Assembly (NCBI RefSeq): GCF_029278565.1 | Contig: NZ_CP119560.1 | Location: forward strand, 124,001-188,000 | Direction: 5' to 3' | From: Haloarcula halophila | GTDB lineage: Archaea; Halobacteriota; Halobacteria; Halobacteriales; Haloarculaceae | Length of the DNA stretch: 64,000 nucleotides | Shown: piece after piece, positions 51,294 to 57,245 of the stretch | How positions within the stretch are numbered: position 1 is the stretch's first letter | How the letters are laid out: every line of letters starts with the position of its first letter | Notes under the pieces: model-generated | Databases searched by the model: none | What the model saw: the letters and a program-made list of their open reading frames with translations, nothing else | What the model was told of the DNA's origin: nothing | Made by a program: the position numbers and the translations under genes

Positions 51294-52355
51294 ATGTCCT
51301 CCGGCTCTTTCCGATCCTCCTCGCCAGCCCTTATCGCCGGAGTCGGTGTCCTGTTGCTCGTCGCTGCCATCACCCATCACATTACGGAGTTGTTCGTTCT
51401 CGACACCGCCGTGGGGCCGATCGCTGCGCTGGTGTTGGATGTCCCCGCAGCGGTGGGACTGACCTACGCCGGCTACTGGTTGTCGCGGACGACCCTCGAT
51501 CAACGCGAACGCTGGACGGTGTGTGTCTGGTGTTTCGCCGGTGTCATCCTGTTCGTCGCCGTCATCGGAGCGACGCTCGGCATCCAGTTCATCGAAGGGC
51601 GGACGGTCTCCGAACCCGGCTTCTCGCTGTTGATCGCTGCCGAGGCCGGTGGCGTCGCCGGCTTTCTGGGGGGCTACTACAACGCCCGTGCTCGGGCGAG
51701 CGCACGCCGTGCCACTACCGCCAGAAACGCGCTCGGGTTCGTCAACGAGCTCATCCGACACGACCTCCGGAACGACCTGAACGTGATCCACGGACACGCG
51801 GACCTGCTCGCCGACGCCGACCGGAACACGAACGAACCGGGTGATCCAGCGATCGTCCGTGAGAAGTCCATGGAGGCCCTGACCCGGATCGAGACCAGTC
51901 GAGCGATCGCTTCGACGCTCCTCCATGACCCCGAACTCGACCCCGTCGATGTCGTCCCGATCGTCCGTGAGATAACGACCCAGTTCGACGACGCTTTCCA
52001 GGCGACGGTCACGGTCGATCTCCCGGAGTCGGCGGTCGTCTCGGCGAACGCCGGTATCCGCTCGGTGCTGGACAATCTCGTCGAGAACGCGATCGAACAC
52101 AACGACTCGGCCGAGCCGAGAGTCGAGGTAACAGTCCACAACGAGCCGGAGACAGTCACGATCACGGTCGCCGACAACGGCCCGGGGATCGACTCGGTGG
52201 GGCAAGAACAGTTGTTGAACGCCGATGCCGCCACCGGTGGCGGCGGTCTCTCGCTTGCTGCGACGCTCGTGGAGAACTTCGGCGGCGAGCTCGACGTTAC
52301 CGAGTCGCCGTTGGGCGGGACCGCTGTCGAGGTGACCCTGCCGACCGCCGAGTGA
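51294..52355 (+). CDS. Membrane sensor histidine kinase
   Basis: A 353-residue kinase. The N-terminal 130 residues contain four hydrophobic segments (VGVLLLVAAITHHITELFVL etc.) with short external loops, then a HisKA domain with H-box RHDLRNDLNVIHGHADLL (about residues 155-173), N-box SVLDNLVENAIEHND, and G1 DNGPGID and G2 GGGGLSLAATL. All catalytic boxes are intact. There is no PAS or sensor domain other than the membrane part. It converges with a second kinase gene at 52365; no response regulator is adjacent. Signal unknown. Confidence 0.92.
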   Translation: MSSGSFRSSSPALIAGVGVLLLVAAITHHITELFVLDTAVGPIAALVLDVPAAVGLTYAGYWLSRTTLDQRERWTVCVWCFAGVILFVAVIGATLGIQFIEGRTVSEPGFSLLIAAEAGGVAGFLGGYYNARARASARRATTARNALGFVNELIRHDLRNDLNVIHGHADLLADADRNTNEPGDPAIVREKSMEALTRIETSRAIASTLLHDPELDPVDVVPIVREITTQFDDAFQATVTVDLPESAVVSANAGIRSVLDNLVENAIEHNDSAEPRVEVTVHNEPETVTITVADNGPGIDSVGQEQLLNADAATGGGGLSLAATLVENFGGELDVTESPLGGTAVEVTLPTAE

Positions 52356-52364
52356 AGCTCCGGT

Positions 52365-53489
52365 TCACTCCACAGCCGTTGTTGCAGTCGCGAGCGGGAG
52401 CCGAACGACGAATTCGGCACCCTCCTTGCCGTCGGTGACCTGGACTTCGCCGCCGTACTTCTCGACGAGGCTGTCGACGAGGTACAGCCCCAGCCCGGTC
52501 CCGGAACTCTCCAGGCCCTTTTCGCCGCGGCCGAAGATCTCGGTTTTGCGTTCGTCCGGGACGCCAGGCCCGTTGTCGGCGATCCGCACCTCGGCGAAGT
52601 CCTCGTCTGTCGTCGCGGTGACGGTCACTCTGGGGACCTCGGAATCGTTGTGCTGGATGCCGTTCGCGATGATGTTCCGGAAGACCGAAGAGAGCATCTC
52701 GTCCGCGATGACTTCCGCCTCCGGGATGGTGTCGGCGATAGTGACGACCGCCCTGTCGTATGCCGACCCCACCTCGTCGACCTGTGCTTCCAAGGCGGGG
52801 CGAAGCGACATCGCCGTCAGCTCCTCGTCGCCGCTCAACATCGTCTCGGTCAGGTCCCGGGCTTGCCGCGTGAGGTCGACGACGTGTTTACCGCTTTCGG
52901 CGAGGCGTTCGAGGTACTGCTGTCCCTCCTCGTCGACGTACCCGCGCAACACGTCGGCCATCCCCAGGATGACCTGCATGTCGTTTCGGATGTCGTGGCG
53001 GGTGACTTGGTTCAGTATTTCCAGGTTCCGTGTCTGCTCGCGGAGTTCGGTTTCACGGCGTTGTTGGAGCGTCACGTCCTGAATGACACCGACGATTCCA
53101 CTGAACCCGTCCCCGTCGTAGCCGCGCCGCTCGACGACGATGTCCCGGTTCCCGTTGGCCAGTTCGATCGTCAACTCCAGTTGTTCGGTGCCACCACTGG
53201 CGAGCAACTGTGCGTCGGTGGTATCACAGACCCTTGCGAGATCCGGGCGGAACTCCGCGGTTCGCTTGCCGATGATCGCGTCTCGATCCCGCTCGACAAA
53301 CGACACGAACTCGTCGTTACAGACCACGTATCGACCGTCAGCGTCCTTGAGAAACGTTGGGTTCTGGACACAGTCGATGACGGCGGCCAACCGCGCGTCG
53401 GCGTGTCGGCGGGTGATCAGTTCCTCCCGGAACAGATCGACGAACGGGGTCTCCCGTGTCCTGTCGTTGGCTCTATCCGTCGCCTCCAT
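52365..53489 (-). CDS. PAS-domain histidine kinase (N-terminus probably lost to a frameshift)
   Basis: At least 374 residues from the first good ATG at 53487-53489: a PAS domain (VIDCVQNPTFLKDADGRYVV to about VGVIQDVTLQQRR), H-box VTRHDIRNDMQVILGMADVL, N-box FRNIIANGIQHNDS, G1 DNGPGVPDERK and G2 SGTGLGLYLVD: a complete kinase core. The same frame continues upstream through about 35 more protein-like residues (DVVDSLEAGAVGYVERDPPN), which look like the end of a receiver-like domain. The rest of that domain lies in another frame (53490-53824), so the gene probably has a one-base frameshift near 53590-53605. The core may still be made from the internal ATG. Confidence 0.8.
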   Translation of the reverse strand: MEATDRANDRTRETPFVDLFREELITRRHADARLAAVIDCVQNPTFLKDADGRYVVCNDEFVSFVERDRDAIIGKRTAEFRPDLARVCDTTDAQLLASGGTEQLELTIELANGNRDIVVERRGYDGDGFSGIVGVIQDVTLQQRRETELREQTRNLEILNQVTRHDIRNDMQVILGMADVLRGYVDEEGQQYLERLAESGKHVVDLTRQARDLTETMLSGDEELTAMSLRPALEAQVDEVGSAYDRAVVTIADTIPEAEVIADEMLSSVFRNIIANGIQHNDSEVPRVTVTATTDEDFAEVRIADNGPGVPDERKTEIFGRGEKGLESSGTGLGLYLVDSLVEKYGGEVQVTDGKEGAEFVVRLPLATATTAVE

Positions 53490-53824
53490 CGACGACGCGA
53501 CACGGGTCGGGCCTCCGTTTGGCGGATCGCGTTCGACGTATCCGACGGCACCGGCTTCCAGGCTATCGACCACGTCTCGGGTGCCGTCTCGCTCCCTGCG
53601 ATCAGAAGCACCGCTCCGACGCTGGCGTCCAGTTCTTCGACGGTCTCTGGGACCTCGACCGCCAGCGTCGCGAGATCCAGGACGGCGACACCGACGTCGA
53701 TCTCGGTACCGACGACGTCGTCGACCGTCTCGGCCTGTCCGAGTTCGATCTCCGCGACGTGCGCCTGAATCCGGTCGACGTACTCCTCGTCGTGACTGAA
53801 AACGACTGCTTGGCACCCCTCCAT
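53490..53824 (-). pseudogene. Receiver-like N-terminus of the PAS kinase, out of frame
   Basis: From an ATG at 53822-53824 the frame reads MEGCQAVVFSHDEEYVDRIQ, then VDDVVGTEIDVGVAVLDLAT and ELDASVGAVLLIAGSE, which is acidic, hydrophobic-patterned, and resembles a response-regulator receiver fold. It then changes to an unlikely composition (WSIAWKPVPSDTSN) near 53590. In the neighbouring frame, family-like sequence resumes with DGTRDVVDSLEAGAVGYV. Adding one base near 53595 joins both into one protein (receiver-like, PAS, kinase). It follows the LOV gene by 32 bases on the same strand. Either a true mutation or a sequencing error. Confidence 0.7.
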
Positions 53825-53856
53825 AGTCCGTACACGTTCCAGCGACCGCAGAACCG

Positions 53857-55731
53857 TCAATGTGTCTGTCTGCTCCCCGTCTCGGCGTCCCGTTGGAACG
53901 AGAGAATCACCACGCCACCGCTCTCGGTGTTTTCGAGCGACACCCAGCCGCTAGCGTTCTCGACAGCCCACTTGACGAGCCAGAGTCGGATTCCCTGTGT
54001 GTGTTCCAGCGGCGTCTCGCTTCCGGCCTCCAGCGCACTGAGGGCGATCTCCGAGAACTCCATACCCGGGACCTCTACCCGAACTCGAACTGTGTCGTTC
54101 GACGGATCGTCGACGATCCGTACGGCGAACCGCCCCGACGGGCGCTCCCACCCGTCGACAGCGCGCTCGACGAGCTGTTCGAGACAGAGTTCTAGTTGGG
54201 GCGGACAGCGCGCCCTCGCGGTCGTCGGGCCGTCGACCGAGAACTCGATCTCCGGATACTCCGCCCGGAGCGTCGAGACTGCCGACCGAACGAGTGTCGG
54301 TACGTCGAGTGGATCGCTCGATTTCTCGGGGTTTCGCCCGATCTCGAACTGCCTGACGGTATCGACGATGTCCAACAGATCGTCCGACGCGGCCTGGATC
54401 GCTCCGGCGCTATCTGCCAGCGCCGACGGGTCCAGCTCGTCGGCGTGGGTCGTGACGTATTCGGCCTGGCCTGAGATGACCGTCAACCTGTTCCGGAGGT
54501 TGTGCCGGAGGACTCTGTCCAGTACGGTCAGTCGGCCCTGCTGTTCGCGGATCGCGGAGATGTCACGCGCGATCGCGATGATATGGTCGCCGTCGCGCTC
54601 CGAGACGGATTCGTGTTCGAATTTCACCTGAAACGTCCGCTTCTGACCTGTCGGAACCGAAAGCGACAGCTCCCGTTCCTGGGTCTGGCCCGTCTCGACG
54701 ACGATCCGGCAGGCTCGACGGACGATGGCGGCAAGCTCTGTGGGGAGACGGTCCGCTAGAACGGTCGGCTCCGGACCGGCGAACCCGGCTCCGAACACGT
54801 CTATCGCGGCACCGTTAGCGTGGACCACCGTCGTGTCCGCACGCAACACGACGACCGGATCACTGACGGACTCGAAGACGTGTTCGTACTGTTCGAGCAG
54901 CCGCTTGCGTTCGATCTCTTCGGTCACGTCCCGCTGGAACCCGAGGAAGTGTGTCACCGTCCCGCCATCGTCGTAGACCGGGACGATATCCAGTTGGTTC
55001 CAGAACGGCTCCCCGCTTTTCCGGTAGTTTCGGATGACGACGGAGACCGGCTCCCGGGCCTCCAGAGCCTCGCGCAGTTGCGTAACCGTCGTCTCGTCGG
55101 TCCCGTCTCCCTGGAGAAACCGACAGTTCCGCCCCAAAACCTCCGGTAGCGAGTAGCCGGTCAGATCGACGAACCCACGGTTGACGTAGATCAGGGGGGC
55201 TCCCTCGGCACGCGCATCGGCGATACTGATGCCGATGTCCGCGTTGTCCATCGCGCGGCTGTACAGTTCGAGCCGTTCCCATCGGCGTGCGGCGACCAGC
55301 GAGTACTGACGGACGGCCATCAGCCCGTCGACGTGTGAGCGGATCGCGCGTTTCGATGCCGGTATCCGGATGATCCCGTCGATCACGTCACCGAACTCCC
55401 CGGCGTGTTGTGACCAGGGGTCGGACACACTGTCGGGGACCAACAGCAAGACCGGTGCCATCGCCGGCCGCTCGGATCGTTTCCAGTCACGGATCCGTGT
55501 GCGACAGTCGTCGAGTTGACCGACGCCGACCACACAGATATCCGTTCCCTCGGAGATCCCGTCCTCGACGCGTCGCAGTTCGTACTCAGAGAGCGTCTCG
55601 GTCAGAAGCTGTTGATCACGCCCGTCCGGGACGGCTACTGTGACCGTGGTCGCCCCTCGTTCGGGGAGCGGAACTTCGCCGGCCCCCCTGCCACCACTCG
55701 CAAGGCGGTTTGGCGAGCGGTCGTCGGCCAT
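53857..55731 (-). CDS. LOV-PAS histidine kinase-like protein with degraded ATPase domain
   Basis: A 624-residue protein. Order: receiver-like domain (28-145), LOV domain (about 160-275), PAS (about 285-395), HisKA (about 400-470), HATPase-like (about 480-600). LOV marks are complete: GRNCRFLQ with the photoactive Cys at 203, flavin-contact Asn in NYRKSGEPFWNQ (235, 245) and Gln in FLGFQRDVT (266). The H-box LRHNLRNRLTVISG is intact (His 410). In the HATPase domain, the N-box reads LCLEQLVERAVDG, without the Asn, the DNGPG box is missing, and G2 reads TQGIRLW, so ATP binding looks lost. A blue-light sensor that acts without its own kinase activity is inferred. Its start overlaps the KaiC-like stop (TGATG). 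Confidence 0.85.
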   Translation of the reverse strand: MADDRSPNRLASGGRGAGEVPLPERGATTVTVAVPDGRDQQLLTETLSEYELRRVEDGISEGTDICVVGVGQLDDCRTRIRDWKRSERPAMAPVLLLVPDSVSDPWSQHAGEFGDVIDGIIRIPASKRAIRSHVDGLMAVRQYSLVAARRWERLELYSRAMDNADIGISIADARAEGAPLIYVNRGFVDLTGYSLPEVLGRNCRFLQGDGTDETTVTQLREALEAREPVSVVIRNYRKSGEPFWNQLDIVPVYDDGGTVTHFLGFQRDVTEEIERKRLLEQYEHVFESVSDPVVVLRADTTVVHANGAAIDVFGAGFAGPEPTVLADRLPTELAAIVRRACRIVVETGQTQERELSLSVPTGQKRTFQVKFEHESVSERDGDHIIAIARDISAIREQQGRLTVLDRVLRHNLRNRLTVISGQAEYVTTHADELDPSALADSAGAIQAASDDLLDIVDTVRQFEIGRNPEKSSDPLDVPTLVRSAVSTLRAEYPEIEFSVDGPTTARARCPPQLELCLEQLVERAVDGWERPSGRFAVRIVDDPSNDTVRVRVEVPGMEFSEIALSALEAGSETPLEHTQGIRLWLVKWAVENASGWVSLENTESGGVVILSFQRDAETGSRQTH

Positions 55732-57188
55732 CAGTCGCCCTCGTCGGCCCGTCTGGGCACGCCGGTCAGCACGCCCTGATAGCCCGCCACCGAGGGACCG
55801 ACGGTGAGCCCGTCGGCACCGATCTCCACGTTCCGGATCGTCCGCTCGAAGTCACCGTATCGTTTCTTGAGGACGCCGATGACCTTCTGGATCTCCCCGT
55901 CGATCTCGACGTACCGGAGGAAGACGATGTTGTCGGCGAGGTAGCTGATCTGGTCTTTCGTGGCGGTCAGATCACCGGTGACGGTCGAGGCCTCGTCGAG
56001 GAGAAGCGTCGTCACGCCCATGCGTTTGAGATATCGACACAGCGCGTGGAGTTCACGGGTGAGTTGGGTCTGCGAATCGCCGCCACGGAGGGCGAGCCGG
56101 TACCCCGAGATCCCGTCGATGACGACCATCCCGACGCCGTCTTCTTCGACACTGTCTCTGACCATCGCGGCGAACTCGTCGGGGCTCTGTGTGAGGGACT
56201 CGATCTCGGTCAGCAGTAACTGGTCCCGTTCGATCAACTCGTCGAGGTCGAGGCCGAGTTGGCGCGCCCGATACTGGAAATCAGCGGCGAGTTCCTCGAA
56301 GAGGAACCCCTGTGGACGGTCGCCGCGCTGGGCCGCCGCCCGCAGGAACACGGTCGCGAGTGTCGACTTCCCGACGCCCGAGGGTCCGGAGATCACTGTC
56401 ACGGACCCACGCTGGATTCCGCCACCCAGGAGGCTGTCCAGCGATTCGATCCCGGAGCCGACCTGTTCCCGCGAGCGCTCGTCCTGGTGGTCGCCGGGGA
56501 CTAACTTCGGATAGACGTGGCCGCCCGTGCCCGAGCGGATGCGGTACGTGTGTCTGCCACCCGCGTAGTCCGAGCCGCGGAACTTCGTGACCTCCAGACT
56601 CCGGTGGTCCGTCGTCCGGCGAATCTCGATCGACGCGTCGCCGAGAAACTGGATGTCCCGCTCTTCGTTCTCGCTCGTCGCCTGTGCCGTACAGACTGTC
56701 GTGATCGACCGCTCTTTGAGTGCGTTGACGAGCGAGGAGATGTGGCGCCGAAACTGATACTCGTCGGGCAGGAGCGCACGGAGCTCGGTCAGCGGGTCGA
56801 TCACCAGCCTGTCGGGCGATTCGCGGTCGATCGCGTCCCCGATCTTCCCGATGAGTTCCGTCCCCTCGGCCTCCTCGGGCGAGAGGAGGGAGTACCCCTG
56901 TTCGGTGAAAAACCGCGATTCCGATTCGCTGAGATCCAGAATCGTACTGCTCGAGAGATCGATCCCCAGGGTCGCGGCGTTGCGCCGGAGATCGTCCGCT
57001 CGCTCCTCGAATCCGACGTACAGTCCCGACTCGCCGGCAGCGAGGAACTGCAGTGCGAGCACTGTCTTGCCGGTCCCCGGTCCTCCGTTGACGATCGTCG
57101 TCTGTCCACGCAGGAACCCGCCGTGTAACACGGCGTCCAGGCCGGGCGTTCCGGACGGGACCCGCTCTCGCTCGACCGAATCTGCCAT
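55731..57188 (-). CDS. KaiC-like double-domain RecA-type ATPase
   Basis: A 485-residue protein with two RecA/KaiC domains. Walker A motifs are GGPGTGKT (35-42) and GPSGVGKS (268-275). Each is followed by the catalytic Glu pair of KaiC (FEERADDL, 60-63; LFEELAADF, 297-302), and each has a Walker B (RLVIDPLTEL; MVVIDGISGY). In the second domain, the position of the KaiC phosphorylation pair reads DQISYLADN: one Ser kept, the neighbouring Thr is Tyr. It lacks KaiC's long C-terminal tail. Members of this group sit beside sensor kinases in haloarchaea. No KaiA or KaiB is nearby, so a circadian clock is not implied. Its stop overlaps the LOV gene start, so the two are translated together. Confidence 0.9.
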   Translation of the reverse strand: MADSVERERVPSGTPGLDAVLHGGFLRGQTTIVNGGPGTGKTVLALQFLAAGESGLYVGFEERADDLRRNAATLGIDLSSSTILDLSESESRFFTEQGYSLLSPEEAEGTELIGKIGDAIDRESPDRLVIDPLTELRALLPDEYQFRRHISSLVNALKERSITTVCTAQATSENEERDIQFLGDASIEIRRTTDHRSLEVTKFRGSDYAGGRHTYRIRSGTGGHVYPKLVPGDHQDERSREQVGSGIESLDSLLGGGIQRGSVTVISGPSGVGKSTLATVFLRAAAQRGDRPQGFLFEELAADFQYRARQLGLDLDELIERDQLLLTEIESLTQSPDEFAAMVRDSVEEDGVGMVVIDGISGYRLALRGGDSQTQLTRELHALCRYLKRMGVTTLLLDEASTVTGDLTATKDQISYLADNIVFLRYVEIDGEIQKVIGVLKKRYGDFERTIRNVEIGADGLTVGPSVAGYQGVLTGVPRRADEGD

Positions 57189-57245
57189 ATGGATATGAGG
57201 GCCGCAAGCAATGATAAAACCTCCCGCCGTGTGAAACGCGGGCCG

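Follow-up and report, generated by a model that had tools for sequence, protein, structure and literature searches.

The window analysed here, a stretch of 64,000 nucleotides from Haloarcula halophila, is part of a Haloarcula replicon and carries on its minus strand a gene for a two-domain KaiC-family ATPase, a gene for a LOV sensor protein and a broken gene of the receiver-PAS-histidine kinase type (Table 1). The first two open reading frames have exactly one base in common, within the sequence TGATG at 55731, so that the ATG of the LOV gene begins on the final base of the KaiC stop codon; the one-base overlap claimed in an earlier note on this DNA is thus borne out. Upstream of the KaiC gene, the placement of a putative TATA-like element would fit a possible leaderless haloarchaeal transcript, while scans for sigma-70 promoters and terminators, using models unsuited to archaea, gave no signal exceeding that of shuffled sequences.

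Table 1. Features of the KaiC-LOV locus, in window coordinates
Feature	Position	Strand	Remarks
Two-domain KaiC-family ATPase gene	55731-57188	-	485 aa, ATG start; PF06745 1.9e-69, KaiC structures 7.7e-63
CI Walker A of the KaiC-family gene	57063-57086	-	
CII Walker A of the KaiC-family gene	56364-56387	-	
Ser415 codon of the KaiC-family gene	55944-55946	-	Equivalent of KaiC S431; Tyr416 replaces T432
TTTTAT, putative TATA-like element	57214-57219	-	~26-31 nt 5' of the KaiC ATG; sequence reading
LOV sensor gene	53857-55731	-	624 aa, ATG start; receiver-like, LOV, PAS, DHp-like helices, degenerate ATP-binding domain
N-terminal receiver-like domain of the LOV protein	55327-55650	-	Without phosphoacceptor Asp; motif ICVVGVG
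LOV photosensory core	54919-55269	-	Residues 155-271; Cys203 codon 55123-55125
Third gene, receiver-PAS-histidine kinase, broken	52365-53824	-	One base missing near 53573

The KaiC-family ATPase and the LOV protein

The KaiC-like protein is composed of two KaiC/RecA-type domains, matched by Pfam PF06745 in two stretches, and can be aligned over its full length with KaiC proteins of solved structure, the top match being 8zn5. It possesses the hallmarks of the two-domain KaiC family, namely the RecA-type domains CI and CII, each with its Walker A motif, and the catalytic Glu pairs. Twenty relatives show no variation in E61/E62 and E298/E299, in either P-loop, or at S415 and Y416. Set against the cyanobacterial phosphosites T426/S431/T432, these proteins have Thr or Ser at 426, the invariant Ser415 and Tyr416. 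Some plasmid records label such genes as GvpD, an identity that was rejected on a PF07088 score of 19.6 bits, below the cut-off of 24.

Residues 154-290 of the LOV protein, comprising the LOV core, match solved LOV photoreceptors (9vf7, 2e-36; YtvA 2mwg, 2e-35), and the best PDB and NCBIfam matches of this core are LOV proteins rather than other PAS structures; the top NCBIfam model for the protein is YtvA_fam (1.5e-48, under its whole-protein cut-off). The photoactive-Cys motif reads GRNCRFLQG, with the cysteine at position 203, and the canonical FMN-contact set is present as R204, Q207, R220, N235, N245 and Q266. A previous statement that the domain keeps its photoactive Cys and all flavin contacts therefore stands for Cys203 and the canonical six, but not for YtvA Thr30 and Asn37, both of which are Ala in Haloarcula halophila on our reading of the YtvA alignment.

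Beyond the photosensory core, the architecture is that of a histidine kinase which appears to have lost its catalytic end. The family profile of the receiver-like N-terminus matches solely response-regulator receivers, and does so weakly (best E 0.016), while Pfam matched PAS and HisKA on the protein and returned no HATPase match (PF02518). The DHp histidine, His410, is invariant in 21 of 21 LOV-protein sequences, and the N-box Asn is kept in just nine of them. In Haloarcula halophila this Asn is replaced by R523 and VPGME stands where DxGxG is expected; both boxes are intact in relatives such as G118, whose LOV protein keeps its HATPase domain, and the closest aligned relative, from H. pelagica (68% identity), has the same degenerate boxes. 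Because its own ATP-binding domain is degenerate, the LOV protein of this lineage is probably not a self-sufficient kinase, to judge by sequence, and we infer that it acts as a scaffold or phosphotransfer partner gated by LOV, not as a complete kinase. An AlphaFold model of the protein made without an alignment had a pLDDT of 44.6 and was left unused.

A third gene, intact in relatives and broken here

The third gene was described earlier as following the LOV gene by 32 bases, and its ATG at 53824 does lie 32 bases past the LOV stop, but it does not form one open frame. Its receiver is encoded in the ORF 53860-53417 and its PAS-HisKA-HATPase portion runs to the stop at 52365, with a frameshift near 53573 parting PF00512 and PF02518, both of which were found, from the receiver. 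A plasmid of Haloarcula sp. GH36 bears the same locus, 95% identical in DNA, in which the third gene is intact (487 aa) and again begins after a 32-base gap; the H. pelagica gene is likewise intact (503 aa). Alignment to these two places the loss of one base near 53573 in Haloarcula halophila, either as a true frameshift or as a sequencing or assembly error. Past the break, the frame differs from that of GH36 at 31 synonymous versus 22 non-synonymous codons, and this excess indicates that the break is either recent or a sequence error. The trio of KaiC, LOV and third gene is real in relatives and broken in Haloarcula halophila as sequenced; given the frameshift, a lineage-specific place in the operon and the fact that most relatives have KaiC and LOV alone, the functional trio originally proposed is not supported. 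A few relatives show the order KaiC > REC-PAS-HK > LOV/PAS-HK.

Two further observations concern this part of the locus. A histidine kinase with four transmembrane segments (HisKA_4TM, PF16926) at 51294-52355 on the plus strand converges on the third gene, with nine bases between them. In H. pelagica, the KaiC-LOV-kinase locus is found twice on one plasmid (NZ_CP126162.1, ~5-8 kb and 439-442 kb; L069, L070), the two third genes being identical and the LOV start differing in the second copy.

Conservation of the KaiC-LOV pair

The search for KaiC and LOV proteins covered 146 genomes of the family; of 103 KaiC neighbourhoods selected from them, 100 were typed, with ORFs at the typed loci called by a simple script. 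A PAS/kinase-type gene lies directly downstream of KaiC at 84 of these 100 loci: in 31, the protein encoded directly 3' of KaiC has the LOV motif, and in 53 it is a PAS/kinase protein without that motif. The exact one-base overlap recurs in 12 of the 31 same-strand KaiC-LOV pairs, including relatives only 50-66% identical, and the pair as such is found both on the same strand and head to head, in both gene orders. With 20 further loci, picked from an order-wide search and adding examples from outside the family, adjacency extends to at least four families of the order (f1, f4, f6, f7). The KaiC-LOV pair in haloarchaea is therefore real and conserved; of the trio whose conservation beyond the strain was in question, it is the pair that extends to other families, while the third gene falls outside the conserved unit.

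Several lines of evidence bear on how tightly the two genes are associated. On a tree of 122 KaiC proteins, LOV linkage requires 11 changes, 10 of them forced by supported branches, against a mean of 40.8 when shuffled; linkage has thus changed some ten times and is kept inside clades. In the clade that holds the Haloarcula halophila gene (SH-aLRT 99), 44 of 48 KaiC genes have a LOV-type partner, and KaiC and LOV divergence are correlated within it (rho 0.37, permutation p 0.001, with species kinship left in). Of the 150 exact GRNCRFLQG coding sites listed, 37 have a two-domain KaiC no more than 3.5 kb away, far above the ~0.5 that random placement in 3.5 Mb genomes would give, a rough yardstick given that the genomes are related. 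Two of the three such sites in the Haloarcula halophila genome have a two-domain KaiC within that distance. A profile search of contigs with the KaiC alignment returned a single cyanobacterial KaiC, with no LOV neighbour.

Around the clade, the search for a conserved output gene found none, bringing up only antisense noise, synteny within a genus and, in two genera, a gene of the acyl-CoA ligase type; beyond the pair itself, gene neighbours in the clade are not conserved and so indicate no output. The gene in question, of ~530 residues, follows the pair in two genera (L071, L083; G117, G116, G131, G014, G027, G028), and both tested examples are AMP-binding proteins of the acyl-CoA ligase type.

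A second KaiC-LOV operon is present in the same genome and on the same replicon (G000:C2, ~64000-73000; L068, L209), in the order MCP-CheW-REC-PAS-HK-KaiC-LOV-HK-PAS-HK, and recurs in Haloarcula sp. GH36, H. pelagica and Halorientalis marina (L208, L211, L212). Its position behind MCP and CheW suggests, from gene order, a light-linked taxis output for its sub-lineage only: chemoreceptor genes do not generally adjoin KaiC-LOV pairs, but are tied mainly to one sub-lineage.

Relation to known systems

The LOV core resembles that of YtvA (2e-35) and shares its contact motif. In YtvA, however, the C-terminal domain is STAS, and the LOV histidine kinases of bacteria are self-sufficient; neither is known to be co-translated with a KaiC. 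Closer to hand, the haloarchaeal LOV histidine kinase ALovD-1 of Lake Diamante has, as here, its LOV domain within REC/PAS/kinase architectures, although the paper describing it mentions neither KaiC nor operons (PMC12202551).

On the KaiC side, KaiC-family ATPases have been proposed as signal-transduction hubs in archaea (Makarova et al. 2017, cited in PMC5847659), in which a KaiC-like ATPase is likewise linked to receiver, PAS and histidine-kinase proteins; as far as the account of these hubs in PMC5847659 extends, it makes no mention of LOV, and so none of a recurrent pairing of KaiC with a canonical LOV domain. A literature search for KaiC with LOV in archaea, with Makarova 2017 (mBio) outside its scope, found no description. 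The suggestion that such a system is undescribed in haloarchaea accordingly survives for KaiC with LOV, but not for KaiC followed by a histidine kinase, an arrangement already known. Plasmids of Rhizobium, Agrobacterium, Sphingobium, Azospirillum, Bradyrhizobium, Aureimonas and Paraburkholderia carry comparable pairs, in which a two-domain KaiC is followed by a kinase-type gene that overlaps it or lies a few bases away, as here, but the seven kinases examined contain no LOV domain. These alpha- and betaproteobacterial loci are L210 and L235-L240, and that of Sphingobium cloacae has the same one-base overlap. The order KaiC then histidine kinase is general, and LOV input is a recurrent haloarchaeal variant of it.

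The cyanobacterial KaiABC system with CikA/SasA is similar in its KaiC fold, both P-loops, the S431 equivalent, its kinase partners and the presence, in one partner, of a receiver-like domain without the phospho-Asp; it differs in that KaiB is absent from the Haloarcula halophila genome. Among haloarchaea, the KaiC homologues cirA-D of H. volcanii show light-dependent expression, with no photoreceptor neighbour described (PMC3941300).

A candidate light input and its alternatives

Our preferred reading, held with modest confidence, is that the KaiC-LOV pair constitutes a module through which blue light feeds into a signalling ATPase of the KaiC family. The LOV domain would bind flavin, and blue light would drive formation of a Cys203-FMN adduct; the resulting change would travel by way of the next PAS domain and the dimerisation helices to KaiC, co-translated and presumably hexameric, where it would alter the ATPase or the autophosphorylation state (at Ser415, an adjacent Thr being the other candidate site), and either KaiC or a histidine kinase associated with it would then act on targets elsewhere. 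Having kept its DHp histidine and lost its ATP-binding residues, the LOV protein may, where needed, receive kinase activity in trans; the source could be the REC-PAS-HK encoded next to it, which is whole in GH36 and H. pelagica but broken in Haloarcula halophila. A haloarchaeal LOV domain has been found to photocycle in up to 3 M salt (PMC12202551), and expression of the H. volcanii kaiC homologues shifts with light and dark (PMC3941300). A more specific version, in which the LOV protein makes direct contact with KaiC and the ATPase or phosphorylation state of KaiC is set by light, possibly as an archaeal light-set timer, strikes us as rather doubtful. Some KaiC-linked LOV-type domains have lost the Cys, so light cannot signal by the classical route in all of them. 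Since many related KaiCs sit beside a PAS kinase that is not a LOV protein, the association of a sensor with KaiC is firmer than that of light with KaiC.

The main rival reverses the flow of information: KaiC would be the sensor or timer, responding to ATP state or phosphorylation, and the downstream protein its output kinase, with the LOV domain gating that output by light. SasA and CikA are the output kinases of cyanobacterial KaiC, and a reversed flow would sit comfortably with the 53 of 100 family loci whose PAS/HK partner has no LOV motif, with the HATPase domain in a relative's LOV protein, and with the seven annotated bacterial plasmid loci examined, where a kinase-type gene always comes right behind KaiC, overlapping it by one base in one case and in no case carrying LOV. 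Yet the degenerate ATP-binding domain in this lineage means that the partner cannot simply be an output kinase, and a SasA-type KaiC-binding domain was not seen; we consider this reading unlikely, while giving it more weight than any other alternative.

A second possibility, less likely again, is that the LOV domain senses flavin redox state or oxygen instead of light, with KaiC following redox or energy state. The Cys is missing from 12 of 64 KaiC-linked LOV-type domains, replaced by Pro in eight and by His, Tyr or Arg in four, with flavin contacts mostly kept, and the NifL redox-PAS model also scores on the LOV protein. The Pro-for-Cys domains, in which the other flavin contacts are largely kept, come mostly from family f4 (L192-L195, L197, L198, L202; also L076), and such variants have already been seen in Lake Diamante sequences (PMC12202551). 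Against redox or oxygen sensing as the general role, the Haloarcula halophila domain and 52 of the 64 keep the Cys and nearly the whole photochemical site. As natural relatives paired with KaiC, the Cys-to-Pro variants provide a ready-made control for what light contributes.

It is improbable that KaiC and LOV act in separate pathways and are joined merely by operon economy or co-transfer. The locus is carried on plasmids in the named relatives and its adjoining genes vary freely, as co-transcription alone would allow, but the roughly ten linkage changes on the KaiC tree have left linkage conserved inside clades, and the pair recurs in different orientations and both gene orders. We give still less credence to a decaying locus that no longer signals in this strain: the single-base deletion in the third gene and the degenerate HATPase of the LOV protein would be expected of one, whereas comparison with GH36 gives 31 synonymous against 16 non-synonymous codons in KaiC and 60 against 25 in LOV, an excess resembling that under purifying selection, and the degeneracy, common to H. 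pelagica at 68% identity, is old and tolerated. Finally, a light-entrained KaiC circadian clock is barely credible despite the KaiC family membership, the light sensor, the conserved S431 equivalent and the diurnal expression of H. volcanii kaiC homologues (PMC3941300), since the absence of KaiB (no PF07689 match in the genome) makes a KaiABC-type clock unlikely, Tyr occupies the T432 position, archaea reportedly lack the RpaA/B output, and KaiA is confined to cyanobacteria (PMC5520375).

Significance

KaiC-type ATPases are abundant in archaea, and the signals they sense are mostly unknown; the LOV pair offers a concrete candidate input, and one that could explain the light-dependent behaviour of haloarchaeal KaiC homologues. 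No photoreceptor has been detected in the input pathway of the Synechococcus clock (PMC5520375), so that the KaiC-LOV pair would, if the preferred reading is true, provide the direct photoreceptor for a KaiC protein that is reportedly missing there. Haloarchaea may thus pass light straight into a KaiC-type switch.
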